From the IMG/VR virus record IMGVR_UViG_3300031706_000070, positions 1-20,008 of that record: 20,008 nucleotides of DNA. The stretch is one strand, 5' to 3'. This DNA comes from a virus. Each line of letters opens with the position of its first letter. Position 1 is the stretch's first letter. This document shows positions 1 to 20,008 of this stretch, in pieces. A model generated the notes under the pieces. It was not told the origin of the DNA and searched no databases. It saw only the letters and a program-made list of their open reading frames with translations. The translations under genes and the position numbers were made by a program.

Positions 1-3000
1 TTAAATCATATATAAAATTCTTTATTCTAGCTGGAAACTTTAAAAATTCTGCACTATCTGCATCAAGCCTAGAAGCTGCATAAATATTATAAGTTCCTTT
101 TTTATCTCTTAAATCAGATCCTTGCAAAGAGAATTGTATAACATCAAAACCTTTGGCTTCACCTTTATATCTATCAATTTTAGATTCTAAATCGTTAATT
201 TGAGCATCGATAACTATTTTATTAGCTATATCTATAGCAGTTTCAGGAGCAATAGATTGTCTTGCTATTAAGTTAGAAATATTTTCTTCAGTAGCATAAT
301 CAGCTACGATCTCTTTAGTAATAGGAGTTATTATTTCTCTGGCTAATTGCTTTTGTCTTTCTAATATAGTATTCTTTTTACCTTTAAGAAAATAAGTTAA
401 AAACGTTGTCTTATCTGTAGGCGGTATTTTATATATAGGATTACCTTCAGCAGTTAATTCTCTACCTAATCTTTCTATTTTAAATAAATTACCATAACTT
501 TTTTTAATAGTTTTTATAGGCAAAGCTTTAGTAACAATGTCAAAAGATTTTTTACTATTTAAAAAATCTATATAACCAGCAGGTATAACAACATTACCTT
601 TAGATTCGCCAATAGCTCCCCATTTCTTTAAAATCTTTTTAAATAATGTTTTATCTATATAATTTTCTAACCAAGATATAATATAAGTATCTCTACCTTT
701 TTTAACTGAAACCATTTCAGATAATGTACCTTTGGCTGCACGTGTTTTAAGCTCCTTATCTAGCTCTGATTCTATCTCTAATATAAGTTTATCATCAACC
801 ATATCAAGCTGATCAAACGTGGCCTGACCACGCTCTACTGTTCCAGATCTGTCAATGCTTTGTGTATCTACTGTAGAAACAACGTCTTTTGCCGCATCTA
901 CATCCTTTTTAATACCTCCGTCTTCTTGAGATTCGATACCCAATCGTTCAGCTAAATCATTTGCTCTTAAGTAACTTCTGTTTACTATAAATTTTTCTAA
1001 TTCCTGGGAACCGTTATACTCATTCAAAGTCATAGCTTCAATGTCACTACGCATAGATTCTTTAAATGAATCCCTAGTTACATTTCTTTTTGCGTCTTCT
1101 GCAATTGGATCATATAAAGCCTTTGTTCTATTTGTAACAACTTTGTCTATAATTTCTTTAATGCTTAATAAAACTTTTTGTTCTAATCTAGCCTGCTTAG
1201 GATTTAAAGCTAGATCAAGTACAGGGTTACCTTTTTTATCTTTTAAAATATTACCTTTGTTGTCTTTTTTATACTTTTTATATTTTTTAGCTAAAGCTGC
1301 ATTCTCTTCTGCTAATTGTTTAATAATAGCTATATCAGCCGATGTTTCAGTACTTTGTTCCGGCGTTAAAGTTTTAGATAAATTCATATCTACTGAAGAA
1401 GAATCAGATAAATCTATATCACCTAAAGCTTTAGATGCAGCCTCTGTTAAAGACCCTTGCTCTGCACTTATATCATATTCTTTTACAAAGTTATATACAT
1501 CTTTACCAGACTCAAAAGATATATTGTCATAACCTTTGCTTTTAAACACACCTGTAATAGCCCCACTTATTTTTTCAAAAGTGGTTTTATCATAGTTAAT
1601 TTGTTTTTTTCTTAAAGCATCTGCAAAAACATTTATATATTCAGTATTGTATTGATTAGCTGTAGTATAACCTCTAGTTCTCATTGATTTATCTACAAAA
1701 GCTCTTTGAGAAGAAGTCATAGCTCTTCTAAATTGTTTTACAATTTTACCTTGTTGTTTTGAATCCCCTATAAGTTTATTAAAAACAGGATGTAATACTT
1801 CGTGAGCTCCTACATTTATTGCTCCTTGTTCTCTTGCAACTTCTTTATTTATTAGTATTTGATTGCCAATGGAGAATCCGTGAATATTACCTTTTGAATC
1901 TTTAAATGTTTTTCTATCTTTAGCGGATACATTCTTAAGTTTATTTACTGCTCCTTGTATTGCTTTTGTACTTTCGTAAACTTTAAAAATTAAGCCTCTG
2001 CTTTCAGCTTCCGTTTTAGCAAATTCTATATTTTTATCAAACTCCATATTAACAAGAGATTTACGGGAAGCATCGTATTCTGCTTTAAATCCTGCAGCTC
2101 CAGCGTTGTATTGATCTTCTGTAATTTCTCCTTTTCTAAACTTTTTATTAAGATCAGTAATTTTATAGGCTGCGGCGTCCGCTAAATCAGTTAAGCTTTC
2201 AATCTCACTTAATTGTTCTTTGCTTAAGCTATTATAAATATCATTACCTTTTCGTATTGAATCTGCAATATCGCTTTCGGTTAAATCTATTTCTTTTTGT
2301 ATACCTTCTTTAACAAGTTTGTCTTTAGTGGTATTATATTTTGTTCTTAGTGAAGCTAATTTATTTATGTTTTTATTTACAGCATCCCCATCAACAGTTG
2401 TCCTAATAGAATTCATAGCCTTAACTGAATAAGTAGAAGCCGTCATTCCGCTACCACCTATAAAACCTTGAAGACCAGCTTCTAAACCTTCCTGACTAGT
2501 TACAGCATCTACAACTGTTTTCATTATTTGAGATTCATTATCCGTACCAGCTACAGATCCTAAATTATTGTTAACCTCATCAGCAGCATGTTGTAGTATT
2601 TCTGTAGTAAATTCAGTTGCTCCAGTAGCAAACATATTCATCGCAGACCTTGCTCCTTTATTATATATAAGTTTTTCAGCAAGATATTTACTACCCATAC
2701 CCATCAAGCTGTTTCCTCCAGATCCTTTTAACGCACCTTTCGCTCCTTTAGCAACTGCTCCAAGACCTATAAATTCTAAGGCAGTAGATATAGCTCCCAT
2801 ACCAATAGGTATTGCTTCGTCTGCTTGATCTGATAAAACTAATTCATTAAAAGTAACACCTAAGTTTTCAGCTTTTAATTTATTAAAGTTAACATAGTTT
2901 TCAGCAACATAATCCATAAAAAAACCAACACCAACTGTACCAGCTCCAAAACCGATACTACCTATCATACTAGTAATAGCATTTACTCCCCCAGCTAAAG

Positions 3001-3589
3001 CTCCTCCAACATCACCGTTTTTAACACTTTCAATAATACCTAATGTTTCTTTGGATTGTAATTTTTCTTCCTTATATTTATCTAAAGACCCACCTTCTTC
3101 AAGCATATCTTTAGACCCTATTCCTTCTACTAGCCATTGAGGTTTACCGTCAACAAATTTATCAACACCTTCTTGGCCAAATAAACCGGAGTACACTGCA
3201 TTGGTAGCTATATCTAAAGAAGCGTTAGCTCCTTCGTCGGTAAACCAAAATTCATATACATCTTCTAGCTGCTCTCCCATATTAGAGAAAGAATTTTTAA
3301 TCGATTGCCAAGCCGATAAACCACTTTCCGATTCTGAACCCGTATCTTTTTTTCCTGACTCCACACTTGGATTCGCACTTGCAGAGTCGTTTGTCTTTGC
3401 TACAAGAGCATTGCTTTTCCATTCGCTAAATTCGCTTTTTGTATAATCGTTATCCTTTAAATAATTGTATACATTAGCTTGCACATCTTCATTTTCATTT
3501 AGATTTGTTTGCCATGCATCAAAGTCTGAATCCGTTTTACCTTTTGAAGATAACTCGTTCCATATGTTTTTTAAAATATCGTCTGCCAT
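1..3589 (-). CDS. Giant putative ejection (internal virion) protein with zinc-metallopeptidase motif; partial, C-terminus beyond left edge
   Basis: I read this frame codon by codon: 1196 sense codons without a stop from the ATG at 3587-3589, still open at position 2, so the C-terminus is missing. Residues 8-61 hold two diverged 31-residue-spaced copies of a Trp/Phe motif. Residues about 190-229 and 254-300 are Gly/Ala-rich and hydrophobic, as in membrane-active ejection proteins. Residues 596-600 read HEVLH, and Glu650 sits in NTEYINVFADAL, which fits a gluzincin-like zinc site (two His plus a downstream Glu). The rest is charged and helical, with a Lys-rich stretch near residue 775. It starts 10 bases after the 480-residue gene and ends a likely ejection module, the place where T7-like phages encode gp16. 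Peptidase function is inferred from the motif. No transglycosylase motif was recognised in the visible part. No Shine-Dalgarno precedes the start. Confidence 0.8.
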   Translation of the reverse strand, partial: MADDILKNIWNELSSKGKTDSDFDAWQTNLNENEDVQANVYNYLKDNDYTKSEFSEWKSNALVAKTNDSASANPSVESGKKDTGSESESGLSAWQSIKNSFSNMGEQLEDVYEFWFTDEGANASLDIATNAVYSGLFGQEGVDKFVDGKPQWLVEGIGSKDMLEEGGSLDKYKEEKLQSKETLGIIESVKNGDVGGALAGGVNAITSMIGSIGFGAGTVGVGFFMDYVAENYVNFNKLKAENLGVTFNELVLSDQADEAIPIGMGAISTALEFIGLGAVAKGAKGALKGSGGNSLMGMGSKYLAEKLIYNKGARSAMNMFATGATEFTTEILQHAADEVNNNLGSVAGTDNESQIMKTVVDAVTSQEGLEAGLQGFIGGSGMTASTYSVKAMNSIRTTVDGDAVNKNINKLASLRTKYNTTKDKLVKEGIQKEIDLTESDIADSIRKGNDIYNSLSKEQLSEIESLTDLADAAAYKITDLNKKFRKGEITEDQYNAGAAGFKAEYDASRKSLVNMEFDKNIEFAKTEAESRGLIFKVYESTKAIQGAVNKLKNVSAKDRKTFKDSKGNIHGFSIGNQILINKEVAREQGAINVGAHEVLHPVFNKLIGDSKQQGKIVKQFRRAMTSSQRAFVDKSMRTRGYTTANQYNTEYINVFADALRKKQINYDKTTFEKISGAITGVFKSKGYDNISFESGKDVYNFVKEYDISAEQGSLTEAASKALGDIDLSDSSSVDMNLSKTLTPEQSTETSADIAIIKQLAEENAALAKKYKKYKKDNKGNILKDKKGNPVLDLALNPKQARLEQKVLLSIKEIIDKVVTNRTKALYDPIAEDAKRNVTRDSFKESMRSDIEAMTLNEYNGSQELEKFIVNRSYLRANDLAERLGIESQEDGGIKKDVDAAKDVVSTVDTQSIDRSGTVERGQATFDQLDMVDDKLILEIESELDKELKTRAAKGTLSEMVSVKKGRDTYIISWLENYIDKTLFKKILKKWGAIGESKGNVVIPAGYIDFLNSKKSFDIVTKALPIKTIKKSYGNLFKIERLGRELTAEGNPIYKIPPTDKTTFLTYFLKGKKNTILERQKQLAREIITPITKEIVADYATEENISNLIARQSIAPETAIDIANKIVIDAQINDLESKIDRYKGEAKGFDVIQFSLQGSDLRDKKGTYNIYAASRLDADSAEFLKFPARIKNFIYDL
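1790..1804 (-). other. HEXXH putative zinc-binding/catalytic motif in the giant ejection protein
   Basis: Codons CAC GAA GTA TTA CAT on the minus strand encode HEVLH, residues 596-600, preceded by NVGA and followed by PVF. HEXXH is the zincin signature: the two His bind zinc and the Glu is the general base. A candidate third ligand, Glu650 (codon at 1640-1642), lies 50 residues downstream in a helical Glu-Tyr context. Short HEXXH matches can occur by chance, so the hydrophobic context before it and the well-placed Glu are the main support. Confidence 0.6.
3407..3568 (-). repeat. Tandem 31-residue protein repeat at the N-terminus of the giant protein
   Basis: Residues 8-30 and 39-61 align without gaps. 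Conserved positions are N8/N39, I/V, W/Y, N11/N42, L13/L44, T19/T50, S21/S52, F23/F54, W26/W57 and N29/N60. The repeat is visible at protein level only; the DNA has diverged. It may be a small helical docking module that packs the protein in the virion. This role is inference. Confidence 0.6.
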
Positions 3590-3599
3590 AAAATTTGAT

Positions 3600-5042
3600 T
3601 TAACCGAAGTTACCTGTTGATTCTACTTTTTCTTCTTTAACTATTACCTCTTCATTATTCTGCTCTTGCTTTTGACCTCTGCCGCTATAAGTATCGTATT
3701 GACCTAAATGATAGTTTTGAGCTTTGCCAGAGAAGCCTGAGTTTTGTATGTAAAATTCATATAAAGCTTGAGGATTATTTGCATCTATATTTATTCCATA
3801 AGAATACGCAGGTTTTGAAGCATTAAATTTAAATATTTGAGCATTACCGTATTCTTTAGTAAACTCTACATCTGCTTCTTCCATTTCGTCATCATCAAAA
3901 CCATTTCCTGCTGCCCATTGAACAAGCATTCTATCTCTACTAATATAAGGATTTGATTTAGCTGTAGGATCAATAGCATTTATTTGATTAACTATAATGT
4001 TGTTTTTATCAATACCAGGAGTTCCATTTGCTAATTCAGAGAATCCCATTGCCTTATTAATAACAGGACCTGATAAATCAATTTCATCATTTAAAGCTCC
4101 GCTAAAACCAGTCTTGCTTCCTCTTCTTCCGCTTCCACTATTTGCTGGCCTTTTTTCAGCAGCACCTTGAGCAGCACTATCTACCATCGCATCCATATAA
4201 CTATTAAGAACTTGTTCTCTTAATAAATCTTCATTAGCCGGTTCAAAAAGTGATGGATCTTCTAAATTTAAACCACCTTCAATTAAAAAATCATCAGATG
4301 ATAAAGATAGTAATGTATCTCTACCTCCTGAATTTATCATGTTTTTTAGTTTGTTCCTAACCATATTTTGCCTAGCGCCACTTAAAGATTTACCTGCGCT
4401 ATACACGCTCTCGTTTAGTTGCAAAATTTTATCAGCAGAAGCAAAGTCTTTTAAGAAAGGTTTTTCTATAGTAGCATAGTTAGAATACTTACCATCACTT
4501 TCATTCCAAAAGTTTAAGTTACCTCCTTCACCAATTCCCATTATGCCTTGATCTGTAAATATATCGCCAGCACTTTTTAAAGCACCTAATTTATTACCAT
4601 CAGATAATCGTTGATCATCAAAATTTTTTAAATAAGCTATTTTTTCTTGCTTGTATGTACCCATTTGACCGGCTAAGTTCCTAAAGCTGCTTTGAATACC
4701 ATTCATTTTGTCTCTAAGTTCCATGTACATCCCAGAAGAAGGATCATCTATTTTAGCTATTTGAGTAGCATACTCCGCATATTTTTGTTTGTTTTCTACT
4801 AAGTAGTTAGAAACTGCTGAATTTTGTTCTCCTGTTAATTGAGTTAAATCAATATCAGAGTTTAATGAATTTATATAAGCACCTACTTTATTATTAACTA
4901 AAGCTTTTTTAGCTATATTTTGAGCAGTTATTATAGCTAATTCCTGTCCTGTCTCTTTTGCTACGGCTTGAGCACGAGCTCCCCAGGTAGATTCTTTACT
5001 CTGACCTAACGCAGCGGCACCTCTTACTAAATTTATATTCAT
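3600..5042 (-). CDS. Putative internal virion/ejection protein of unknown family, 480 residues
   Basis: I do not recognise the family. The protein is mostly helical and polar, with Ala-, Gln- and Lys-rich N-terminal segments (residues 1-150) suited to coiled coils. A low-complexity basic stretch with NSGSGRRGSK lies near residue 305, and the tail is rich in Gln and Glu. There is no signal peptide or clear membrane segment. It lies between the glycine-rich 214-residue protein and the giant peptidase-like protein, so it may be the middle member of a three-protein ejection set, comparable in position to T7 gp15. That comparison rests on gene order and composition, not on recognised homology. The ATG at 5040-5042 directly abuts the A-rich element AATAATAAAACT, and the stop is TAA. 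Confidence 0.85.
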   Translation of the reverse strand: MNINLVRGAAALGQSKESTWGARAQAVAKETGQELAIITAQNIAKKALVNNKVGAYINSLNSDIDLTQLTGEQNSAVSNYLVENKQKYAEYATQIAKIDDPSSGMYMELRDKMNGIQSSFRNLAGQMGTYKQEKIAYLKNFDDQRLSDGNKLGALKSAGDIFTDQGIMGIGEGGNLNFWNESDGKYSNYATIEKPFLKDFASADKILQLNESVYSAGKSLSGARQNMVRNKLKNMINSGGRDTLLSLSSDDFLIEGGLNLEDPSLFEPANEDLLREQVLNSYMDAMVDSAAQGAAEKRPANSGSGRRGSKTGFSGALNDEIDLSGPVINKAMGFSELANGTPGIDKNNIIVNQINAIDPTAKSNPYISRDRMLVQWAAGNGFDDDEMEEADVEFTKEYGNAQIFKFNASKPAYSYGINIDANNPQALYEFYIQNSGFSGKAQNYHLGQYDTYSGRGQKQEQNNEEVIVKEEKVESTGNFG

Positions 5043-5060: not shown

Positions 5061-5705
5061 TTAAACCCCGTTTCCAGGTGCGCCTAAAAATTCTCCAAAA
5101 GCACTACCTTTACCAATTGTTCCATCAGCAAACCCTCCTAATGTTGCACCAACTGCTCCAGTAACACCACCTACTATACTATTAGTAGCATCTTGTCTTG
5201 CTTTATTTGCTGCACCTAATCGTTGTTGCGACATACCTAACAATGTTTCTGTTTTGTCTTTTTCAGCGTCTCTAGATATTAATTCACCTTTTCTTTCGTA
5301 TAATTGTAAATTCCCAGCTTGTTTACGTTCAGCTGCTTGATTGTTTTGTTCTTGTCTTCCAATATCCAATGAAGCTTGTTGTGTTTGTGACTGTTGCTGA
5401 TTGGCTAATGATTGAGCTAAAGCAGCAATTCCAGATCCACCTGCCGCACCCTGAAGTCCTGACATAACATTAGACAATCCTTGATTAGATTGTTGAGCAG
5501 CAAACTGCGCAGCGCCTTGATTAACCGTAAGGTCTTCTTGGGTATTTTCCATATTTTGATAAACATTAGACGTATCTAAGCCTTCAAATTGTGCTTTTCT
5601 ATTATTGTATTCTTCTTGAGCTACGCGTTGCTCACGCTTTCTTTTTCCGCTACCTATTATTCCGCTAGCTATTCCGGTAAGACCACCCACTATTTGTCCT
5701 ATCAT
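5061..5705 (-). CDS. Glycine-rich putative ejection/DNA-transfer protein, 214 residues
   Basis: Both ends carry Gly/Ala-rich hydrophobic segments with small-residue spacing (GGLTGIASGIIGSG at residues 7-20 and VGGVTGAVGATLGG near residues 178-191), able to form glycine-zipper membrane helices. Between them lies a long Gln/Ala/Asn-rich helical region with little hydrophobic content. This layout, the size and the position at the start of the ejection module match small internal virion proteins such as T7 gp14 or P22 gp7, which enter the cell envelope and help form a DNA channel. The assignment rests on composition and position; no specific motif proves it. The start at 5703-5705 is preceded by an A-rich leader, and the stop is TAA, 18 bases before the next ATG. 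Confidence 0.85.
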   Translation of the reverse strand: MIGQIVGGLTGIASGIIGSGKRKREQRVAQEEYNNRKAQFEGLDTSNVYQNMENTQEDLTVNQGAAQFAAQQSNQGLSNVMSGLQGAAGGSGIAALAQSLANQQQSQTQQASLDIGRQEQNNQAAERKQAGNLQLYERKGELISRDAEKDKTETLLGMSQQRLGAANKARQDATNSIVGGVTGAVGATLGGFADGTIGKGSAFGEFLGAPGNGV

Positions 5706-5737: not shown

Positions 5738-6064
5738 TTATTTGCTACTCTCAAATACCTGCGAACCAACCAAAAACAATTCCGCGTAATCAACGGAATC
5801 ATTCTTGAACTGCATTTCGGCATAGTACCCCTTCAGGCTATTAGTGTTTACACTAGCGGTTTTACTAAAAAGTATAAAGCTAGTTAATACAGGTCTAATT
5901 TGGCTTGGACTTATTTCAGCAGTAATAGACGTTGCTGTCAATGCTGTTATTAAACCTATAACCTTAATGTCTTTACCATTAATGTCGTTAGTATAATAAA
6001 CAGTATCACCTATTTGAACAGAAGTGTTTAACGGTTGTAAGAATGTTAATGTTATTGAATCCAT
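5738..6064 (-). CDS. Small conserved tail-region protein, 108 residues
   Basis: A small, beta-rich soluble protein. Residues 15-50 (GDTVYYTNDI, then VIGLITALTATSITAEI) read like an SH3/OB-type barrel. The C-terminus, GYYAEMQFKNDSVDYAELF followed by VGSQVFESSK, resembles the end of small proteins I associate with tail-fibre genes of marine phages. It sits between the 710-residue tail protein and the ejection genes, so it may cap or connect a tail component. No enzyme motif is visible, so function is not assigned. The start follows an A-rich leader that overlaps the stop of the preceding gene. Confidence 0.85.
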   Translation of the reverse strand: MDSITLTFLQPLNTSVQIGDTVYYTNDINGKDIKVIGLITALTATSITAEISPSQIRPVLTSFILFSKTASVNTNSLKGYYAEMQFKNDSVDYAELFLVGSQVFESSK

Positions 6065-6068
6065 AATT

Positions 6069-6085
6069 AGTTTTTATTTTATTAT
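6069..6085 (-). promoter_or_regulatory. A-rich start leader element, extended variant
   Basis: Reads ATAATAAAATAAAAACT on the minus strand, ending four bases before the ATG of the 108-residue gene. It shares ATAATAAAA and the terminal AACT with the copies at 5043 and 5721 and overlaps the in-frame TAA TAA that ends the 710-residue gene. Confidence 0.35.
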
Positions 6086-8214
6086 GTACAGCTACTATCA
6101 GGGCAGCATATTCTAAGAAGTAGCCATTGTGTTCCGCTTGCTCCTGTTACTCTAACTGTAACTTGTGAGTTTGTTTGATAATCCGCTGCTGTATATGGCC
6201 ACCATACAATCTGCTGATAACTACCAAGAGTTGCTGTATAACCTGTATCGTTATAAAATTCAGTTGTTCTAAGTGGAGCTGGGTTTACTGCTTGCGTACC
6301 TATAAAGTAGGCATTTGCGTTTGCTTGAGCTGCAGTAGGGATTGTGTTTGAAGGCTCTGTACCGTAAACGTTATCAAAAGCTGGTGTTCCAAAATTACCA
6401 CCTGCAAACCAACCAGTTGTTGCTTTTTTAGTTCCGCTAGCTGTACCATGTATAATCTCTAACTTATCCCCAACACCATACGCGTTAAGAGCAAAAGATA
6501 TAAGACCTCCAGCACTATCTAAACTTACGCTTAAATCTGTTATACCCGTGCCACCAGATGAAACACTCGAGTTACAAGGAACAGATACATTAGCAGCAAA
6601 TGTTAATACTGCACCATAACCTAAGCCACCTTCATTCCTAACAAAAGCTCTAACGTAATAAGTGCTACCAGCAGTTAAACCTGTAATGGAACTAGCAAAC
6701 CCGGCGGTACCACCACCTTGAGTTGTTGCTCCAAGTATTGTAGCAAAATTAGCAACTGCACTCCATTGTATACCTTTGTCTGATATAGTTCCACCACCGT
6801 CTGTTATGGTTCCACCTCCACTTGTTGCTGTGGTGCCTGTTATATTTGTAACTGTAGTAGTTATAATCGTAGGAGTAGTAACTGACTGTAAAAAGTTATC
6901 AAGATTAAGTTCGCTTAATAAAGCCTGAGTTCCTACCGTACCGATGTCTGTGTCTAAACCTATTACTAAAGTTTTAGGATCTGAGGCGTTATTTATTGTT
7001 ATAAGCAATGGATCTTGCACTGTTTGATTAGTTATAGGATCTCCTAATCCTTGATTTGACCAATCAGTATTAATAGGAGTTGTAGTAAAAATAAAGTCCT
7101 GACTACTTCCAGGCCTAGAAGCCGATACACTATAAGAACGAATCCCAGGAATTGTAAAAGGAGTAAAAGCTTTAGTATTCGCTGAACCAGTAGTTATACT
7201 TGAGCTGGTGCTAGTTAAAACAAAGCTAACGTTTTGTGATGTATATTGATATAATTGCCAAACAGAAGGTTGTCCTGCAACGCAAGGAATATATGGTGAT
7301 GTTGTGCAAAAAGAACTGGCTAAATCTCCAGTTAATGTGAATGTATAAATAACATTAACCAATGATGCTGGAAAAATTACGCTTTCAGCATCAAAGCCAG
7401 TACTATCTATTGTTCCTGAAAATTGACCAATCGTTGTGCCCCCAACACTTTCTGTAACTTGCAAAGCCCATGCCGCTCCAGTTATACCGGAAATTGTAAT
7501 GACCCTGGTTTCACCAGATGTAAGTACATCCGTTGAATTTATAGAATAAGATTGTATTTTTACAGATGGGCTATATATTACTGTTGCATTAGCTGTTAAG
7601 CAAATTTCATCTCCGCTAACACTTGTTTGTGGAAACTTATATACAACAGTAAAAACAACTTGCGTTAATTGATTAGCAGCATTATAAGTCTTAACACTTG
7701 TAATAGTATAATTACTTACAATACCTATATTTAAAGCTAATACGGGTTCTACCTCAAAGAAAAAACCTGTGCTAGCAACAACACTTTGTGTTAATACTGT
7801 AGCTGTTGTATTAAAATCGCCATTAACAGCGTAAGCAGAAGGAAGATCTCCTGAAGCCGGTAACGATACATTAGATGTACCACAAGCTTTTAATGTACCA
7901 GATAATGTAACTTGGGTTTGCTCAGCATAACCAGTAGCGCAAATGTCTATTAAGACATCGTTAGCAGGCATTACACTAGGCGAAATATAAGTAACCAGGC
8001 ATGTTATGTTTGCTCCCGATTGTGAAAAAACAACGCTACTCACATTGGTTGGCAATGGAGCTGTTGCAGAAAAATTGCTAGCATTTATAGTAAATCCAGT
8101 GTTTGGTGTTAATAATAAAGCAACAGACGGATTATCTAATGTCCAGTCTACTCCGGTGGTTTCATCGAAGCTTACTATGGTTGCTGAAAAGTTACTTATA
8201 TTTATTGATGCCAT
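6082..8214 (-). CDS. Beta-rich tail fibre/adhesin-like protein with Ig-like and Fn3-like domains, 710 residues
   Basis: A Thr/Ser/Val/Gly-rich protein with many predicted strands and almost no helix. Residues about 40-100 and 150-215 look like two diverged copies of one Ig-like domain (TGF starts; matching D-I-C and E-I-C near residues 90 and 203). Residues about 444-542 form an Fn3-like module (TGTTATSGGG, DGGGTISDKGIQWS, ITGLTAGSTYYVRAFVRNEG) of a kind common in Bacteroidota surface proteins. Residues about 545-710 form another beta domain rich in Trp/Tyr and ending ICCPDSSC, a candidate surface-binding tip. It starts two bases after the stop of the hub-protein gene, so the two are probably translated together. 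Receptor binding is inferred from domain type and position. It ends with TAA TAA. Confidence 0.85.
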   Translation of the reverse strand: MASINISNFSATIVSFDETTGVDWTLDNPSVALLLTPNTGFTINASNFSATAPLPTNVSSVVFSQSGANITCLVTYISPSVMPANDVLIDICATGYAEQTQVTLSGTLKACGTSNVSLPASGDLPSAYAVNGDFNTTATVLTQSVVASTGFFFEVEPVLALNIGIVSNYTITSVKTYNAANQLTQVVFTVVYKFPQTSVSGDEICLTANATVIYSPSVKIQSYSINSTDVLTSGETRVITISGITGAAWALQVTESVGGTTIGQFSGTIDSTGFDAESVIFPASLVNVIYTFTLTGDLASSFCTTSPYIPCVAGQPSVWQLYQYTSQNVSFVLTSTSSSITTGSANTKAFTPFTIPGIRSYSVSASRPGSSQDFIFTTTPINTDWSNQGLGDPITNQTVQDPLLITINNASDPKTLVIGLDTDIGTVGTQALLSELNLDNFLQSVTTPTIITTTVTNITGTTATSGGGTITDGGGTISDKGIQWSAVANFATILGATTQGGGTAGFASSITGLTAGSTYYVRAFVRNEGGLGYGAVLTFAANVSVPCNSSVSSGGTGITDLSVSLDSAGGLISFALNAYGVGDKLEIIHGTASGTKKATTGWFAGGNFGTPAFDNVYGTEPSNTIPTAAQANANAYFIGTQAVNPAPLRTTEFYNDTGYTATLGSYQQIVWWPYTAADYQTNSQVTVRVTGASGTQWLLLRICCPDSSCT
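6588..6885 (-). other. Bacteroidota-type Fn3-like module inside the 710-residue tail protein
   Basis: Residues about 444-542. The order T-x-T-A-T-S-G-G-G, D-G-G, S-D-K-G-I-Q-W-S, then G-L-T-A-G-S-T-Y-Y-V-R-A-F-V-R-N-x-G-G-x-G-Y-G matches the repeated Fn3-like modules found in many secreted Bacteroidota proteins. In phages such modules are often optional adhesion domains on tail proteins. Confidence 0.6.
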
Positions 8215-8216
8215 AC

Positions 8217-11200
8217 TTATGGTGTTGTAATTATTTCTCCTGTTAATACATTTATAGTTACTGCACTATTGTTTGGTTGTCTTGCTGAATATATTTCTAC
8301 ACCAGACTTAAATACTTGTAAATTTACTCCCGAGCCATGCGTGTTTAAGTTACCTCCTGCGTTAAACGTATCTGATATCAATCCAAAAGAAACAATCTCA
8401 GGATTTGGGCCCGATGTGTTAGCGACTATAGTATTAGCAGTAGCTTGATCAATCGTAATTAAATTATATCTATCTCGCGAAGAAAATGCATCAGTACTTG
8501 TTATGTATTTTTGATACGGTGCAGTTGAATCTAAGTCTGTGCTAGTAGTTCCTTGAGAAACCGCAGAAGGAATTGTAGTTGTACCTTCTACATCACCCGT
8601 AGCACTATTAGCAAATCCGTTAGCGTCTAAAGTAAACGTATCAAAATATCCAGTACTTAATGTATTTCCAACATAAGCTCTAGCTATGTCAGTTGTATTT
8701 CCAACTACTCTATATGTACCTCTATTACAACCATGTGCTGATGAATATGAAGCTTGCATTATTGTTACAAAACCTGTAACAGGATCTACGTAAGATCTCA
8801 AAGCTTGACTACCTCTTGTTGTAACTAAAAATTCTAAGTTTAATAAAGCAGCGTTAATTGTATCTCCTACAATTTGCTGAATGCCAGTATTACCGTCAGG
8901 ATCAACTACAGTTAGTGTAAAATCTATAGCGCTAGCTCCTCCAGTTACTGTACTGTTAGGAATATACCAATTTCCAGTACCGTCATTTAAAGGAAGAGGT
9001 TGATTCATCCAGCTTGGTAAACCAACAACTGTATTTATACTTAAAGTAGTAGAAGCATGGTCAGGATCTGCGATACCTATAGGATTATATGTGTAAACAT
9101 CTCCATCTACTAATCCAGTAATTGCAGGTGAGGTTGTTGTGAAATATGGACCCTCTGCTACAGCTTCTATATTAATACTCATTTGAGTTGGATCGCTACA
9201 AAGACCGGCACAACAAGCTGCTACCGTGAAAGAACCAGCACTACCATTGTAATTTAAACTAGGAGTAAAAGTAAAACTACCCGTAGCATTAAGCACTAAA
9301 ACACCCCCTGTGGTTGAATCAGTTATTAATTGGAAAGTTATAGCTGAAGAACAATTATTTGAATCAGTAATATTAAAATTACCTACAGTGTCTTCTACAC
9401 CTTGAAAACTTTGACTTTGTAAAGTTATAGGTATAAGATCATTAAAACACGTAGCATCTAATCCAGTTGTAACTGTAAAATCTGTTATTGGAGGAACTAC
9501 TATTACTGTGGGCCTACCAATACCTTGTACATTAAATTCTTTAGTGCTAACATTTGTATTACAGTTGTCTATGAAAAAAGTATTTAATCCTTTTATGTAG
9601 TTAAAATATTTACCTTCTTTTTCTACAAATTCAGATACTTGCCCTTCTTGCAAATCTGTTATAATAGAATTAGTATACCAACCTTTAGTTGTTTCAACTG
9701 ATGTGGGTATTAATCTTTTACTTGTAATTTGCGCAAGTGAATACGTTTGTAAACTAGCTCCAACTCTATATATATATTCTTTAGAATTCGTTCCGCTATA
9801 ACTTAAAGTTTTAAATCCTTTAATCGACGCTGGGTCTTCATTAAAAATTGTATTAAAAGAACTTTCGTAATAAGCCCCTAAGCTGGCATTGGATGGACCT
9901 ATACCATAAAAGTTGTTGTACGAAGTATTAGAATTCATTTCCCAAATCCTACCTGATTTGAAAGTGTAGTAAACATTATTTAAACTAACACCGTTTTCTG
10001 GTATATATGTTTTTCTAGAAGTCCAACCGTTTAGATCGTCTTTGAAAGATACCGTAGTCGAATACGTAGGATATTCGTTAATAAATGCACCGCATTCCGG
10101 ATCCTTATTAAGTCTATCTGTTTTACCAGCACCTAACGTTTGTTGCCAATAAGGAGTAAGGCTATTAAAGGTAACATTGTAATTTCTCGCGCCGGCATCC
10201 CAAGAACCAATTATTTTTTTATTAATAGATAAATTATCCTGGAAAAAACCATGCATACCATAATCTGAAACAGGTGTTATTCCGTCATTAGATAACCTTA
10301 TAACAGTTCCTCTATTTGAATCTACAAAATACATTCTAAATCCAAACTCAGCAAATGACTCTGGATTTGTACCAATACCGTACTCTCCTTGATATGTTAT
10401 TGTTTGACCAAGAACAGCTCTATTAGATGTTACGTTTGTACTTCCGTCAGCGTTGAATAGAGCATCCTTATTAGCTAAAATCTTCATAGACTTATTCTCG
10501 CATAGTGTAATCAAATCAGTGTCTCTAGCGTACAGTTTTTGAATTGACCCATACTCTGGATTAACGTCTTTAGTTATACCTTCGGCTTGAATAAATTGAT
10601 TTAAACCATTTACTCCCGATGTTGAATTAAATATTTGTGAAAATATTAATCCATTAGATCTTGTTTCTTGCTGATAAGGTTCGTCAAGAACAGCACTTGC
10701 TTTGACACCATTATTTATAGTGGAAGCATTATAATCATCTCTTATTCTATCGGATTCTACCCCGTTACCAAATGAATAGCAATTAAACCAATCTAAATTG
10801 TGCACATTCCCATGTTCACTCATAGCGTAGTTGCCTGCTATTTCGTAATAAATATCTAGCTCAGCAGCTTCCTTAGGCTCTGTTTCAAAAATGGCCGGGT
10901 TACTACTTGAGAATGAATCATTAGAGGTATCTAACCCTAAAAATTCCATCCCTATAAAATTGTTACCTGCAGCACTTGTTGCTACAGTCCATTCAGCAAT
11001 ACCACTACCGTCTATTTGATCTGTTGGATCCCATTGTAAGCCAAACAAATTGCCTTGTATAGGTTCTATATCTAATACCCAGAAAGTTGTTTGATTTGTA
11101 CCGTTTTCAAAATTATCCCAACTACCACTAGTGTTTTTACAGTCGTAATTAGTTATTTTTCTTTCTACTGTTTTGGTTACCCTGTAAATAGTTCCGTTAG

Positions 11201-14006
11201 GATCAGATTTACCATTACCTGTATCAACAAATCTAAATAAAGAACCTTGGGTGTTTAGCTGAGTTAATAAAGCAGGGTTACTTTTTGCTAAACCATCTTG
11301 TTTACCAGACCCATAACCTCCGGACCATCCAACTCTTATTTTACCGGGTGTACCTGTTCCTCCTAATGCTTCTGTACTTGCTCCCGCAAAGTTGCCCTTA
11401 GTACACTCAGTTGACACCGCAGATATATAAAATCGTTCATTAGAATCTTGAGCATCTTTTTTTGTCCAGTTATTACCGCCTGTATTGCCTTTACCCCAAA
11501 AGCTTCCTGTACGACGATTACCTTTTAGTAAATAAGTATAAGCTAGAGCTTTTCTTAAATAAGAAGTGTTATTATTTGCACCAGCATTTGTTATTTTGCT
11601 TTCAAGTAAAGAATCTTGATTTACTTTAACAAAAAATCTTCCCGTAAATTCCGGTTTATTTAATGTTTGAATTTCAGCTAATTCTAATATTAATCCAGGA
11701 ACTTTGTTACTAAACCCGTAAGGCTCCGTAGAGGTAAAATTCATGTCTGAACCAAAAGAGCTACTACAAATAATCCTTACCTGTTGATTATTAAGGTCAG
11801 TACCACCTCCTTGTAACCCAAAAGACGATATTTTATACCATTCACTAGTAGAATTTGCTGTTAAAACTCTTAACTGTAGTCCAGACTGAGTCCTGGTAAC
11901 GTCTCCAAAATCTGCGTCAAATTTTTTAGCGCTATCAAACCAAATTTCACTAGCTCCTTCTATTGGAAATCCTGCGACGTCCTCCCACCCTGTAGCTTGT
12001 CCTTTAGACAATCTAGTTTCTTTTAAATATTGAGGAGCTTCATTTTCAATAGCTATAACTTTGTATCTAGCTTCTTCCGTTACAGGATTGTCGTTGTCAT
12101 GCTCTTTTTTTAATGTAATAAAAGTTTCTTCATCAATCTTGTTTCTTTCAGCCGAAGGAAACGACAACCAAACGTTGCCATCTTCTGCATCGTAAAATCT
12201 ATCCAAGCATATGTTATAATACTCTTGACTAGTTTCTTTTACATAATATTTAAAGGTTGAAAAAAGTTTATTCTGAGCGTAATAAGGTTTTGTATTAATT
12301 AACTGAGCTGTTATGCTGTTAGCAAATTGAGCCTCTTCTTTTTCAATTATAACAGAAGCGTCCTTACCTGTAAATACAGGTGTAGTTCTTCCGTATTCAT
12401 CCTGGTAAGAAACACCTATTTGGTAGGTTCTAATGCTTTTTAGAGATGGGAATACTCTATTTCCATCTAAGCCAACTCCTTGGGTAACACCTACATCATC
12501 TACTGTTAATATTTCTTGTGAACGAGACGCTACGTTTAGATTAATTTGTAATTGATTAAGATCAGATGACAATACGTTAAAGTTCTGCGTATAATTTGCA
12601 AATACTAATCTATTAGCCACTACTTCCTGTCCTAAAGCAAATCTAGGTACGTTATCGTAGGGTCTTAACAACTGATTACTTTGTACAACGGATGATATTA
12701 TTTCACTCGTTATATTAAATTTATTGTTAGTCCATTCTAAATCTGTTTCTTTAAAAGTGTCAACCACATAAACATTAGCATTGTTTGATGCTTTGTACAA
12801 AATGTCTACACTTGTTACTCCCTTCGGTATATCTGTTGGTATAAAGTTTGAAATTTCCAGCTGCCTTATATTATTAACCATACCTAGGTTATAGCCTTGT
12901 TTAGGCGAATAATTAAACTCTCCTGGCAAAAACGCAGGATTAGTAAAAGGAGAATATGCTGATAACTCGTTATTTTTATATTTATACCTGTAACCAAATC
13001 TAGCAAACCTAAATTCAAAAAAAGGTGGTTTTTGTTCTAAAATAACATTGTAAAGAGATGCTTGTGTAGATTCCCCGTCGTCACCCCTACCTACTGAAAG
13101 AACCGTAACTATTGCTCCTGTTTGATACCCTACTGATCCTATTATGCTATCTATGCTAACACGAACGGTAGCTCCCGGATCCAAAGGATCGGCATCAGAA
13201 CTTGTTAATAGTAACTTTTGTCCCACTCTATAAAAAGGTAAAGTTTGACCCTGCCACGATAAAGTTTGAAGACCATTAGCCGGAGTCATAGGTCCTATTT
13301 CAGTGGCTGCACCTCCAGGTACCTGTGCGTAAAAGCTATATAAAGTAGTAGTTTCTATATTTGCAGGAAGCCCCTGATCATCTACAGCGCTCGTTGAATA
13401 AGCTGTTATTGTAGGCGGCTGCAGTGGAAACTTCTTTATAACAGTAGTATCTGATTCTATAAAATTTCTTCCGTATATTTTTGAATGGAAAATAAAGTTA
13501 GGTGTAGAACCTTCCCATTCAGATATATATATTTGCTTAGGCTCTGTTTGATTGTCTGTCCAAAGCAATATACCTTCTAATATATTTATACCTGTAATTA
13601 AATTATTAACATTAAAATTAAAAATATTTTGAGCATCTACTATTAATGGTAAAGTAACTTGAGTAATAGTGTTGTAACTAACTATTGCATCATTAGTATC
13701 TGAAGTAATAAACCAGTATATTATATCTGAATTAGGCTCCGCAATAGAACCTATACAAGTAGCGTTAGGTAATTGACTTATATACACGCTTGAATCCCAT
13801 ATAGTATTTTTGCCTGTGCTATCATTATAATTAGAATAGGCTTTTTCAGTATTTCCTTTTAAATTCTGAAACGTACCTACCTGAGAAGTATCAGATGAAG
13901 CAACTTCTAAATTTAGAGCATCTCGGTATTGGCCGCTAGGAACAAGTCTTTCATCAAGATCTTTGTTCATTTTTCCAGATTGGAAAGCATGTACAATCTC
14001 TGGCAT
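8217..14006 (-). CDS. Tail hub/nozzle (P22 gp10-like stabilization) protein fused to adhesin-like C-terminal domains, 1929 residues
   Basis: The N-terminus carries NKDLDERLVPSGQYRDA followed by VGTFQNLKGN, a signature I associate with marine-phage tail stabilization proteins compared to P22 gp10 and the T7 gp12 nozzle. Further family-like stretches occur near residue 1265 (IIGSWDAGARNYNVTF) and at about 1320-1360 (GWTSRKTYIPENGVSLNN, then YYTFKSGRIWEMN). Up to about residue 1500 the protein is the hub proper. After a Pro/Val linker (VIVVPPITDF) come a Cys-containing beta domain (about 1510-1612), a cadherin/Ig-like domain with ADPDH, LPSWM and VVDPDGNTG (about 1615-1715), and a terminal Thr/Ser/Asn-rich beta domain of about 210 residues that I do not recognise. 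It should close the portal and form the tail, while the extension probably contacts the cell. It starts four bases after the stop of the preceding gene. Confidence 0.85.
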   Translation of the reverse strand: MPEIVHAFQSGKMNKDLDERLVPSGQYRDALNLEVASSDTSQVGTFQNLKGNTEKAYSNYNDSTGKNTIWDSSVYISQLPNATCIGSIAEPNSDIIYWFITSDTNDAIVSYNTITQVTLPLIVDAQNIFNFNVNNLITGINILEGILLWTDNQTEPKQIYISEWEGSTPNFIFHSKIYGRNFIESDTTVIKKFPLQPPTITAYSTSAVDDQGLPANIETTTLYSFYAQVPGGAATEIGPMTPANGLQTLSWQGQTLPFYRVGQKLLLTSSDADPLDPGATVRVSIDSIIGSVGYQTGAIVTVLSVGRGDDGESTQASLYNVILEQKPPFFEFRFARFGYRYKYKNNELSAYSPFTNPAFLPGEFNYSPKQGYNLGMVNNIRQLEISNFIPTDIPKGVTSVDILYKASNNANVYVVDTFKETDLEWTNNKFNITSEIISSVVQSNQLLRPYDNVPRFALGQEVVANRLVFANYTQNFNVLSSDLNQLQINLNVASRSQEILTVDDVGVTQGVGLDGNRVFPSLKSIRTYQIGVSYQDEYGRTTPVFTGKDASVIIEKEEAQFANSITAQLINTKPYYAQNKLFSTFKYYVKETSQEYYNICLDRFYDAEDGNVWLSFPSAERNKIDEETFITLKKEHDNDNPVTEEARYKVIAIENEAPQYLKETRLSKGQATGWEDVAGFPIEGASEIWFDSAKKFDADFGDVTRTQSGLQLRVLTANSTSEWYKISSFGLQGGGTDLNNQQVRIICSSSFGSDMNFTSTEPYGFSNKVPGLILELAEIQTLNKPEFTGRFFVKVNQDSLLESKITNAGANNNTSYLRKALAYTYLLKGNRRTGSFWGKGNTGGNNWTKKDAQDSNERFYISAVSTECTKGNFAGASTEALGGTGTPGKIRVGWSGGYGSGKQDGLAKSNPALLTQLNTQGSLFRFVDTGNGKSDPNGTIYRVTKTVERKITNYDCKNTSGSWDNFENGTNQTTFWVLDIEPIQGNLFGLQWDPTDQIDGSGIAEWTVATSAAGNNFIGMEFLGLDTSNDSFSSSNPAIFETEPKEAAELDIYYEIAGNYAMSEHGNVHNLDWFNCYSFGNGVESDRIRDDYNASTINNGVKASAVLDEPYQQETRSNGLIFSQIFNSTSGVNGLNQFIQAEGITKDVNPEYGSIQKLYARDTDLITLCENKSMKILANKDALFNADGSTNVTSNRAVLGQTITYQGEYGIGTNPESFAEFGFRMYFVDSNRGTVIRLSNDGITPVSDYGMHGFFQDNLSINKKIIGSWDAGARNYNVTFNSLTPYWQQTLGAGKTDRLNKDPECGAFINEYPTYSTTVSFKDDLNGWTSRKTYIPENGVSLNNVYYTFKSGRIWEMNSNTSYNNFYGIGPSNASLGAYYESSFNTIFNEDPASIKGFKTLSYSGTNSKEYIYRVGASLQTYSLAQITSKRLIPTSVETTKGWYTNSIITDLQEGQVSEFVEKEGKYFNYIKGLNTFFIDNCNTNVSTKEFNVQGIGRPTVIVVPPITDFTVTTGLDATCFNDLIPITLQSQSFQGVEDTVGNFNITDSNNCSSAITFQLITDSTTGGVLVLNATGSFTFTPSLNYNGSAGSFTVAACCAGLCSDPTQMSINIEAVAEGPYFTTTSPAITGLVDGDVYTYNPIGIADPDHASTTLSINTVVGLPSWMNQPLPLNDGTGNWYIPNSTVTGGASAIDFTLTVVDPDGNTGIQQIVGDTINAALLNLEFLVTTRGSQALRSYVDPVTGFVTIMQASYSSAHGCNRGTYRVVGNTTDIARAYVGNTLSTGYFDTFTLDANGFANSATGDVEGTTTIPSAVSQGTTSTDLDSTAPYQKYITSTDAFSSRDRYNLITIDQATANTIVANTSGPNPEIVSFGLISDTFNAGGNLNTHGSGVNLQVFKSGVEIYSARQPNNSAVTINVLTGEIITTP

Positions 14007-14009
14007 AGG

Positions 14010-14912
14010 TTAGTGTTTTATAATTTTAGATTTATTACGCATTACTTGTGTAATTTCTTCAATTTTAATATTAGATAATCTTAATTTAGCATTTCTTTTT
14101 GCAGCTCCTCTTTCTTTTTTAAATCTAGAAACTAAATACTCAGGAACATTTGTTCTTGTTGAAAGTATTGCATAAGCCATGTACTTGTATAAGGCATCTT
14201 CTGCAAATTTATGTACAGACATGTCCTCGTCTTTTTGTACACCGTCTGATATATATTTTAAAGTAACTATTCTTCCAACAAAGCTTGAATCAAAAAATAT
14301 AATACCCTGCAATTGATCTATATAAAATACACCATTTGTTTGAGCTTGCTCTGGTGATAATCCGTATCGTTGCCCGTAATGGTTTATAGCTACAATTTCT
14401 CTTGTAGGTAAATCTAAATTTTGATTAGGTGTACTTCTTTGAAACTTTTTTTGTGTTTCGGATGATTGCGCAGAAACTATTTCACGATCCTGTTCGTCAA
14501 ATAAGTATTCATAGTTATCATCTTGTAATATAGGAAAAGGATTACTTGTTTTCATAGCAGGATATATAACTCTTTCAATACCATTACTATCTGTCCATGT
14601 AAGTTTTACGTAATTTACATAATCTTTTGGCAAAACAAAGTTTAAGTTAGGTCCAACTTCAATTTCTTGACTTAATACTGAAGGTAGTATATCAAAACTA
14701 AATTCTTGTATACCACGTTGAGCGTGAAAAGCAACATCTGTTCTTTTTATTTTTGGAATGATTTTGTCTTCGCCTGTATATGATATAATAAAATTATTAA
14801 TAATATCTTTTATACTGACAAATTGATAATTGCCATAATCTTCATCCCAGCTATTCCATATCCCGTCAGGGCCTAAATAGTATTGTTCGTCTGTTTGATT
14901 TATTAAGCCCAT
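14010..14912 (-). CDS. Head-tail adaptor/tail-connector protein, 300 residues
   Basis: A soluble structural protein resembling connector proteins found next to gp10-like hubs in marine phages. Recognisable blocks are VAFHAQRGIQEFSFDILPS (near residue 60), VLPKDYVNYVKLTW with the following IERVIYPA (about 93-118), and a helical C-terminus with VHKFAEDALYKYMAYAILS and PEYLVSRFKKERGAAKRNAK, ending strongly basic. The basic tail could face DNA in the portal channel. Its neighbours are a second adaptor candidate just upstream and the hub downstream, with three-base gaps on both sides, so the three are probably translated as a unit and assemble below the portal. The exact ring it forms cannot be told from sequence. 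Confidence 0.8.
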   Translation of the reverse strand: MGLINQTDEQYYLGPDGIWNSWDEDYGNYQFVSIKDIINNFIISYTGEDKIIPKIKRTDVAFHAQRGIQEFSFDILPSVLSQEIEVGPNLNFVLPKDYVNYVKLTWTDSNGIERVIYPAMKTSNPFPILQDDNYEYLFDEQDREIVSAQSSETQKKFQRSTPNQNLDLPTREIVAINHYGQRYGLSPEQAQTNGVFYIDQLQGIIFFDSSFVGRIVTLKYISDGVQKDEDMSVHKFAEDALYKYMAYAILSTRTNVPEYLVSRFKKERGAAKRNAKLRLSNIKIEEITQVMRNKSKIIKH

Positions 14913-16609: not shown

Positions 16610-18019
16610 CTAAATTTTCTTTAATAACACAAAATTGTTTGCTGCTTGTACACATAAACATCTTTCTGATAAGAAGTGAACGTTCATTGCATCCTCGTCG
16701 CTTGTATAGTTTCCACCAACAGATCCAGTGATCCAAGATTTCATCTTTCTATCGTCAGCTTCAGAAGCTCTATAACGAATATGTAAGAATGGTCTTGAAA
16801 TATTCTGTCCTAATTGTTGGTCATATACTGTAGACGTTCCAGCTGGAACCATTACACCTTCAATATCGTCAATTAATCCACGAGTAGTAGCATCATTTAA
16901 GTATTTCCAGTCAGTTTTGTAGAAATCATAAGATCCTCTACGGAAACCGCTAAATCCTAAGTTAAGTGCCATGTCTTCTGAATTGTTAAATACTCCGTAA
17001 GAAGTACCACCAGTTCCAAAACCATTTTGAGCAGCTAACATATTGTCAATAGCTAAAGCAGTACCTCTTCCTAAGAACATCATGTTCTCTTCAATAGCTC
17101 CTTGCTTATCAAGTTCCTGTAAAATAAGATCGAAATCAGCTAATCCAGCAGCTCCTCCAAAATCAGCATCAGAATAAACTAATCCTCTAGTTTCTAATGC
17201 AGCAAAAAGTCCATCAGAACCTGTAATAGTTCCTGCAGTACCAAATGATGCTGGTGAAGCAATAGGGTTAGTTGCAGTTTCTGCTTCTAACATAGCCATT
17301 TCTAATTGATCTTCAAAACGAATTCTAGCTTCATGCTCAGACTTTAAATACCATAAGTATCCAGAAGTTCCAGCTTCAGTAGTTACTTCAACCCATCCAA
17401 TTTGAGCAGTATCAGAACCACTTACATTGTATTTATCTCTAAGGATAATAGGTTTGTTGTTAAACTGTTCGAAAGCAGCATCAACTGAAGTACCCGCTTT
17501 TTCAGATCCTTTTGCATATTCAGAACCGTATACAAATACCTTTCCATTAGCTGCAACAGGTGTAAGATTTCCTTTGTAACCTGCTACTGTTAATGTAGCA
17601 ACTCCTGCAGCAACTGCAACACTTTGTACATAAGCTTTTTCAACTACTAGTCCGTTAGCACTAGCACATACGATAGTAGCTCCAGGTCCAATAAGATTTT
17701 GTGATGCTCCTCCTACTGCTGGAATAACTACAGTTGTAGTTGTTATAACAACTGGGTCATATGCAATGTGTAATCTACCTTGCTCAGACCATACTACTCT
17801 GTCTGAAGCCATAGGCATTTCTGCTCCTACCATACGTAAAAATCCAGAGATAGTACGGTTTCCGTATCTTTCTACTTCTTTTTCATATACTTCTGGTAAA
17901 AATTGTTGTGTAAAATCCATATCTGTTAAAGATAGGTAGTTGTCGTTAAACAACGTTTGTGTAGGTCTTGGTGTTAAATGCGCCAATGCGCCAACACTAC
18001 CTGTAAATGTTCCTGCCAT
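16610..18019 (-). CDS. Major capsid protein, 469 residues
   Basis: Length, composition and position after the scaffold gene fit a major capsid protein, probably HK97-fold. The N-terminus reads TPRPTQTLFNDNYLSLTDM, then FLPEVYEKEVERYGNRTISG (residues about 40-59) and ASDRVVWSEQGRLH, a pattern I associate with capsid proteins of uncultured marine phages. A Val/Ala/Thr-rich beta insert follows (about 90-170), then helical segments around residue 230 (LWYLKSEHEARIRFEDQLEMA) and a C-terminal SFxRP-like region with SRPFLHIRYRASEADDRKM. No protease-cleaved delta domain is obvious. It is the only gene here ending in TAG, and a hairpin follows 24 bases later. Its start lies in an A-rich leader overlapping the scaffold stop. 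Confidence 0.88.
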   Translation of the reverse strand: MAGTFTGSVGALAHLTPRPTQTLFNDNYLSLTDMDFTQQFLPEVYEKEVERYGNRTISGFLRMVGAEMPMASDRVVWSEQGRLHIAYDPVVITTTTVVIPAVGGASQNLIGPGATIVCASANGLVVEKAYVQSVAVAAGVATLTVAGYKGNLTPVAANGKVFVYGSEYAKGSEKAGTSVDAAFEQFNNKPIILRDKYNVSGSDTAQIGWVEVTTEAGTSGYLWYLKSEHEARIRFEDQLEMAMLEAETATNPIASPASFGTAGTITGSDGLFAALETRGLVYSDADFGGAAGLADFDLILQELDKQGAIEENMMFLGRGTALAIDNMLAAQNGFGTGGTSYGVFNNSEDMALNLGFSGFRRGSYDFYKTDWKYLNDATTRGLIDDIEGVMVPAGTSTVYDQQLGQNISRPFLHIRYRASEADDRKMKSWITGSVGGNYTSDEDAMNVHFLSERCLCVQAANNFVLLKKI

Positions 18020-19223: not shown

Positions 19224-19241
19224 TTATTACTATTATTATTA
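19224..19241 (-). other. Six consecutive in-frame stop codons ending the portal gene
   Basis: After the last sense codons (GAC CCT AGG) the portal frame reads TAA TAA TAA TAG TAA TAA. The run is part of an AAT-type trinucleotide stretch that fills the 31-base gap before the scaffold start, so it serves as both stop array and A/T-rich leader. Confidence 0.6.
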
Positions 19242-20008
19242 CCTAGGGTCTGACGAACCTAAGTTAAAACCTCCACCCATTGTATCAAACCCACTTGATT
19301 CGAAGTTTTGAGGAGGTGCTTCTGTTTGTCTTTGATTTATTAATTCACTTTGTTGCGTAGCTTGCAATTTAGTTCTTTCGTCTTTTCTGTCTTCTTTTTC
19401 TTTAATTTCTTTTTTAGCACCATTAACTTCGATACCTTTAAGTTGCATATTCATTTCAAACTCTAATTGCATTAACTCTTTTTTCAAAGCAGCTTCTTGC
19501 ATCATTTTTGCTTTGTCTATTTCTGCTTGAGCTTGTACTAATGAAATCTTTTGCTGTATTAAAGCTTGACCTTTCTGAACTTCTGCTTGAGCAGCTACTT
19601 GTTGCGCTTCGGCATTGGCTTTAGCCTGTGCTTGAATATTTTGCTGTTGCATTTCTTGATCCAGCTTTTGCTTAGCTACTCTTCTTATTTTTAGTAATTG
19701 ATTAGCAAGTTTAAGACTTCTTACTTCTCTAAGATCTATAGCATCTGATAAATCTATTAATCCACTTTGAACAGCCGCTTGAATATTGTTTTCTAATATA
19801 GCTCTTTCTTCTTCATCTGGTTTTAATTCAATAAAGATACCAAAGTCATACAAATATAAGTCTTTCATTTCTTCAAGAACTGCTACATTTTGATTACCTA
19901 TTTTATGTATAAAAGCATCTCGTGTTGGAGAGTATTCTAAAATATCAGATATTCTTAATGATAAACCTTCACATAAATCCGATGTTAAAAATAAACTACC
20001 ATCTAATA
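19239..20008 (-). CDS. Portal protein, C-terminal part; N-terminus beyond right edge
   Basis: The frame is open from 20008, giving 255 visible residues before the stop; the Met encoded at 19866-19868 is internal, since codons upstream of it are sense to the edge. Visible blocks are RISDILEYSPTRDAFIHKIG and DLYLYDFGIFIELKPDEEE, then a helix (SLKLANQLLKIRRVAKQKLD) leading into a long Gln/Ala/Lys-rich coiled coil of about 100 residues and a Gly/Asn/Pro-rich tail. A C-terminal Gln/Ala helix is typical of portal barrels that project into the head. The position just before scaffold and capsid genes supports portal. Only the C-terminal part is seen, so the family is inferred mainly from gene order. 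Confidence 0.7.
   Translation of the reverse strand, partial: LDGSLFLTSDLCEGLSLRISDILEYSPTRDAFIHKIGNQNVAVLEEMKDLYLYDFGIFIELKPDEEERAILENNIQAAVQSGLIDLSDAIDLREVRSLKLANQLLKIRRVAKQKLDQEMQQQNIQAQAKANAEAQQVAAQAEVQKGQALIQQKISLVQAQAEIDKAKMMQEAALKKELMQLEFEMNMQLKGIEVNGAKKEIKEKEDRKDERTKLQATQQSELINQRQTEAPPQNFESSGFDTMGGGFNLGSSDPR

Follow-up and report, generated by a model that had tools for sequence, protein, structure and literature searches.

A giant cargo-position protein with a gluzincin-like domain and a repeated tag, possibly a self-cutting polyprotein, in a Crassvirales-like podovirus

Background

Zincin domains are already known from giant multidomain phage proteins that are thought to enter the cell together with the DNA, such as N4 vRNAP and P1 DdrB, described in 2017 among the polyvalent proteins (Iyer et al. 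2017, PMC5512222). In the available part of that account, the zincin core consists of three strands, the HExxH helix, inserts and a Glu-bearing helix, and autoprocessing is already proposed, the zincins of injected giants possibly processing the proteins that carry them; cut sites are not named there. The preliminary description of the locus reported here set its protein apart from ejection proteins such as T7 gp16, which carry a transglycosylase instead, and thereby undersold this precedent.

Two tailed phages provide the closest comparison for gene order. Mass spectrometry of crAss001 virions detected the proteins gp45, gp46, gp47, gp49 and gp50, which are treated as cargo; the available part of the report calls them channel-forming and RNA-polymerase-related and mentions no peptidase (PMC10172136). 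For Cellulophaga phage phi40:1, MS/MS of virions identified the products of the genes that close the syntenic block, among them a giant of 1691 aa.

Gene order and phage affiliation

The window, that is, the whole stretch of DNA analysed here, is a virus record of 20,008 bases. All genes that were recognised in it by family or by position lie on the minus strand, and run from the portal C-terminus through the capsid, ring and muzzle genes to the cargo-position genes and the giant:

19239..20006, minus strand: portal protein, C-terminal part (phrog_6547, E 1.7e-32)
16610..18019, minus strand: major capsid protein (phrog_13704, E 1.3e-97; PF23898, 24.0 bits, below the cut-off of 27)
14010-14912 and 14916-15647, minus strand: two ring-type virion proteins (phrog_13977 and phrog_14543; matching phi40:1 gp096 and gp095)
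8217..14006, minus strand: muzzle-like protein, 1929 aa (PF25729, 29.1 bits, cut-off 27; phrog_14478, E 9e-121)
6082-8214, minus strand: 710-aa protein between the muzzle and cargo genes
5738-6064, minus strand: 108-aa protein (matching phrog_18548)
5061..5705, minus strand: 214-aa protein, cargo-position gene by position only
3600..5042, minus strand: 480-aa protein, cargo-position gene by position only
2..3589, minus strand: likely cargo giant, N-terminal 1196 aa of an open frame that leaves the window at its edge

One further gene separates the portal from the major capsid protein, which is followed by the two ring-type proteins and the 1929-aa muzzle-like protein, and then by proteins of 710, 108, 214 and 480 aa and the giant. 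The 710-aa protein matched no family in Pfam or PHROGs, and the 480-aa protein yielded no significant family match. The muzzle-like protein contains the Crassvirus muzzle C-terminal domain PF25729 above its cut-off, the mark of a Crassvirales-type virion module. The part of it that lies beyond this crass domain has Ig/cadherin-like matches around residues 1526-1597, and phrog_18548 is split over two genes, its positions 3-89 corresponding to the muzzle-like protein and 143-239 to the 108-aa protein. By capsid protein, the closest annotated phages are Manatee Spring podovirus, Maribacter phage Panino, Elemovirus of Flavobacterium and Cellulophaga phages. The source virus is a marine Crassvirales-like podovirus related to gut crAss-like viruses, with flavobacteria as the probable host group.

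The giant is likely to be packaged in the virion and to leave it ahead of or together with the DNA, as its gene comes after the portal, capsid, ring and muzzle genes of such a podovirus. It occupies a place behind the muzzle gene comparable to that of the giant cargo proteins of crAss001, and, like phi40:1 gp101, a giant found in virions by MS/MS, it is encoded by the last gene of the structural block. The pointers to packaging and injection are thus gene order and the phi40:1 proteome, and the evidence is one of position rather than similarity, because the last three phi40:1 proteins have no detectable similarity to those of the window; gp101 itself shows no detectable similarity to the giant in sequence, and has neither an HExxH motif nor the tag described below. 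Unlike the crAss001 cargo, nearly all giants studied here lack the RNA polymerase motif pattern (D.DGD is present in 2/144), and a virion RNA polymerase role, which was also considered for them, is not supported.

Extent of the giant and its exchangeable parts

The giant had been described as having at least 1196 residues, and indeed its frame (2-3589, minus strand) starts with ATG and encodes 1196 aa before running off the window edge. Complete relatives measure 2182-3099 aa. The relative on contig L003, whose best segment shares 67% identity with the window giant, is a complete protein of 2182 aa, so the window probably covers roughly the N-terminal half of its giant. Two parts of this half lie outside the zincin domain:

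2720..3007, minus strand: hydrophobic Gly-rich segments, residues about 195-290 (Kyte-Doolittle windows from residues 207 and 259-262)
815..1357, minus strand: helical-looking conserved block adjoining the zincin domain, residues about 745-925 (alignment of relatives)

The former could possibly be a membrane part. A tblastn search of phage genomes with the giant gave zero matches. A relative was also seen on L251, a 6.9-kb contig that was assigned to an Aliivibrio MAG but may be a misplaced phage fragment.

Relatives combine the zincin and a HAD-like phrog_415 module in one very large polypeptide; the window itself ends before the module region. The HAD-type module, recognised by its phrog_415 match, is found in L007 and L114, and more weakly in L002, L027, L050 and L056. 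The module of the L003 giant matches phrog_26930, a family without known function, and has weak similarity to P-SSM2 hypothetical proteins; judged by eye, its D...ExK pattern looks nuclease-like. The N-terminal part is exchanged as well, with L003 being unlike the window giant there and alike further down. Residues 106-560 of L003, within this exchanged part, match phrog_32588, a 1686-aa family of unknown function.

A gluzincin-like domain with a strictly conserved signature

The HEVLH string and Glu650 noted in the preliminary description are both found at residues 596-600 and 650 of the minus-strand frame 2-3589, within a domain delimited as follows:

1445..2047, minus strand: zincin-like domain, residues about 515-715 (AlphaFold model, pLDDT 79, pTM 0.69; alignment of 74 relatives)
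1790..1804, minus strand: HEVLH, residues 596-600, with predicted zinc ligands H596 and H600 and predicted catalytic base E597 (conservation)
1640..1642, minus strand: E650, predicted third zinc ligand (77/77 nonredundant relatives; 36/36 aligned with an independent seed)
1643..1645, minus strand: T649, candidate specificity residue; the position is acidic in K-tag giants and non-acidic in Q-tag giants (comparison of zincin columns)

To collect relatives of the domain, viral contigs were searched with the whole protein and with two alignments. Among 77 nonredundant domains, counted where aligned, H596 and H600 are each present in 76/76, E597 in 75/76 and E650 in 77/77, with the H600-E650 spacing ranging from 43 to 79 residues, and these four positions are the sole invariant columns in the 74-sequence domain alignment. 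HExxH arises in 0.1% of shuffles of the giant's sequence. Because some of the seeds contained HExxH, we checked for bias by seeding from the giant's C-terminal domain instead, without use of the motif: this recovered 37 domain-bearing giants, all 37 with HExxH intact, and E650 was present in 36/36 aligned. Conservation of HExxH and a downstream Glu across homologues is the gluzincin signature. Homologues lacking these residues had been named beforehand as evidence against a zincin; none was found within the domain family, while the syntenic giants of Panino, phi40:1 and phi13:2 are without any HExxH.

A broader set of 116 nonredundant giants, defined by the C-terminal domain and a closed N-terminus, comprises 96 with this zincin and 12 with another HExxH string. 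In the L225 and L237 giants, EELFH and QEVGH occupy a similar place to HExxH and are possibly degenerate forms. The syntenic giants of elemo (L010:18852-29936), Gundel_1 (L012:20109-27557) and the Manatee Spring phage (L009:741-12320) have HExxH in other surroundings, two such strings being present in the last.

An AlphaFold model built from the 74-sequence alignment (replacing one from 6 sequences, in which the active helix was poorly resolved and the fold matches were meaningless) runs from an N-terminal helix through strands to the HExxH helix, and on through inserted helices to the Glu helix (pLDDT 79, pTM 0.69), and thus appears to follow the zincin order of elements, resembling the polyvalent core with variable inserts. 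Its top matches in Foldseek and VIA-align are gluzincins, the best being of the M34 type (lethal factor catalytic domain, PPEP-1, PPEP-3), which likewise have HExxH and a Glu some 45 residues on; these are weak matches (Foldseek E of at least 0.4, Z 4-5.4, sequence identity about 10%), and we take the gluzincin-first ranking as supportive rather than as proof. A sequence search against solved structures gave nothing sound, and the window's own domain matched none of the Pfam families or solved structures significantly. Weak Pfam hits among the domain members are to the zincin families M78, ATLF, DUF3267 and SprT, with ATLF hit in 4/74 members (E up to 0.1, best 0.002). The MPTase-PolyVal and LPD models of Pfam were unmatched by the window giant, L002, L003 and the domain set; unlike polyvalent zincins, the window domain is not matched by their Pfam models at the cut-offs, and the giant resembles the polyvalent type by architecture only. 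Overall, the initial reading is supported in part: conservation, model, precedent and gene position together favour a predicted gluzincin-like metallopeptidase at residues 515-715 of a giant protein that is probably packaged and ejected.

A repeated tag behind the zincin domain

On reading the relatives, we noticed that one short string recurs, within a single protein, at several of its domain borders. Its consensus, h-[QK]-F-S-[KRL]-[TSN], is repeated within single giants, and a variant and a tag can be located in the window giant:

1367..1387, minus strand: tag-like variant MNLSKTL, residues 735-741, at the slot of QFSKTL in L003
122..142, minus strand: tag VIQFSLQ, residues 1150-1156

When every tetramer was counted over 87 nonredundant giants, QFSK came up 68 times versus 3.1 expected, with at least two copies in 19 giants, and the pattern hydrophobic-[QK]-F-S-[KRL] occurred at least twice in 27 giants versus 0.13 by shuffling. 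The only two QFSK hits among 383 other ORFs were both in sequence resembling pieces of the same giants. Another multi-copy tetramer, AFAN, was discarded, since in L003 it occupies two fixed positions within the C-terminal domain. The [QK]FS[KRL] sites are confined almost entirely to the region between the zincin and the C-terminal domain (159 sites, versus 2 ahead of this region and 1 inside the C-terminal domain), and in 48/69 giants the last tag lies 24 to 33 residues ahead of the latter. Borders of pairwise homology blocks cluster at the tags: the share within 10 residues is 5.0% for inner tags and 22% for the last tag, versus 0.9% for random positions (at most 2.3% over 200 draws) and 1.4% for other FS[KRL] strings. 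The tag serines use both TCN and AGY codons near their usual frequencies, so that the tag is a protein-level repeat, and a DNA-level repeat is ruled out. The tag thus marks module borders, at which cleavage, we infer, may take place.

The strict tag is absent from 30/96 zincin-bearing complete giants, and KFSK tags are present in two giants without HExxH. The zincin-bearing giants of elemo, Gundel_1 and the Manatee Spring phage do not have the tag. L225 keeps two KFSK, and L237 has no tag. No repeated tag was seen in the HExxH-free LPD38 giants of gammaproteobacteria, two of which contain a single RFSRS string. N4 vRNAP also differs from the giants described here in having no repeated tag; a KFSRKLTD string at its residue 2745 (L277), behind the HExxH domain, is a single hit and likely due to chance. 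The available part of the account of polyvalent proteins does not mention a repeated module-bounding tag (PMC5512222).

Tag type and the residue beside the zinc ligand

A single tag type, Q or K throughout, is kept by 37 of the 40 giants that have two or more [QK]FS[KRL] tags, versus 17 expected with random labels, and the two types cluster on the zincin tree (8 changes versus 26 by shuffling). Of about 200 zincin columns, column 649, beside the zinc ligand, separates the types best: the residue is acidic in 31/33 K-type giants and non-acidic in 40/42 Q-type giants, tag type and charge agreeing in 71/75. The link is suggestive only, because the zincin tree has mainly one Q/K switch, with at most 3 supported independent pairs, and because the column was chosen as the best of about 200; a tree-based test of coevolution was set aside as underpowered. 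A substrate lysine facing an acidic pocket residue is one form that a change in recognition could take.

Discussion

The best-supported account is that of a polyprotein-like cargo, probably packaged, with a built-in zincin. That this cargo, probably packaged in a Crassvirales-like podovirus, would also cut itself through a tag-cleaving zincin is a tentative reading of the sequences, to which we give slightly less than an even chance, and self-cutting at the tags as such likewise stands somewhat under even odds. Under this scheme, the N-terminal part and the zincin would remain one unit, and the zincin would cleave at h-[QK]-F-S-[KRL]-[TSN], freeing the middle block, the exchangeable effector modules and the C-terminal domain; the released effectors would be nuclease-like in L003, as judged by eye, and HAD phosphatase-like in others, and cutting could occur during packaging or after entry. 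The fuller version, in which the giants would be true polyproteins whose embedded zincin cuts several tag copies to free swappable effector modules, protease and tags having changed together (Gln/Lys versus charge beside the ligand), is held a shade more tentatively still. Against self-cutting stand the 30 giants without the strict tag, the two tagged giants without HExxH, the weak structural matches, and N4 vRNAP, which according to the available part of PMC5512222 has a zincin yet is packaged uncut. Of the targets listed in the preliminary description, peptidoglycan, host polymerase and defence proteins received no pointer, and the evidence leans to its last suggestion, processing, here of the giant itself.

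A host protein could nevertheless be the substrate, with the zincin acting as an injected effector and the tags serving as plain linkers or as sites for something else. Such a role is proposed for some zincins of polyvalent proteins in the available part of PMC5512222, and would suit a conserved domain that is probably ejected, whereas confinement of the tag to the stretch behind the zincin, and the way its type tracks the residue beside the zinc ligand, are unexpected for a host-directed enzyme; we regard it as unlikely. Comparably unlikely is that the tag is cut by a different phage or host protease, or is a docking peptide for cargo loading or unfolding, the zincin doing something else: module-border tags restricted to the giant suit any linear recognition site, and KFSK persists in the two giants without HExxH, but the Q/K type follows the zincin tree and residue 649.

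The domain may also have ceased to be a peptidase and bind zinc structurally, as needed for packaging or folding of the giant. In N4 vRNAP, the protein with the HExxH domain is packaged unprocessed and the region is required for encapsidation, in the available part of PMC5512222, and the available part of the N4 structure paper reports the motif and gives no activity for it (PMC12633501). Zinc binding alone, however, does not require the base E597, which is kept as strictly as the ligands (75/76; 37/37), making this reading improbable. That HEVLH is a chance motif in a domain that is not a zincin can hardly be credited: the lack of a significant Pfam or solved-structure match for the window's own domain would fit, but the motif's chance of arising is 0.1%, and the four residues alone are invariant in 74 relatives.

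With zincins in injected phage giants already known from polyvalent proteins, what appears to be new here is the repeated module-bounding tag. The giant family supplies candidate cut sites and, in residue 649, a candidate determinant of specificity, both with naturally occurring variants, and the autoprocessing idea therefore becomes directly testable with peptides. If true, self-cutting at the tags would explain how effector modules can be exchanged within one giant gene with their release still possible, and the tag would serve as a marker for module borders in unannotated giants.
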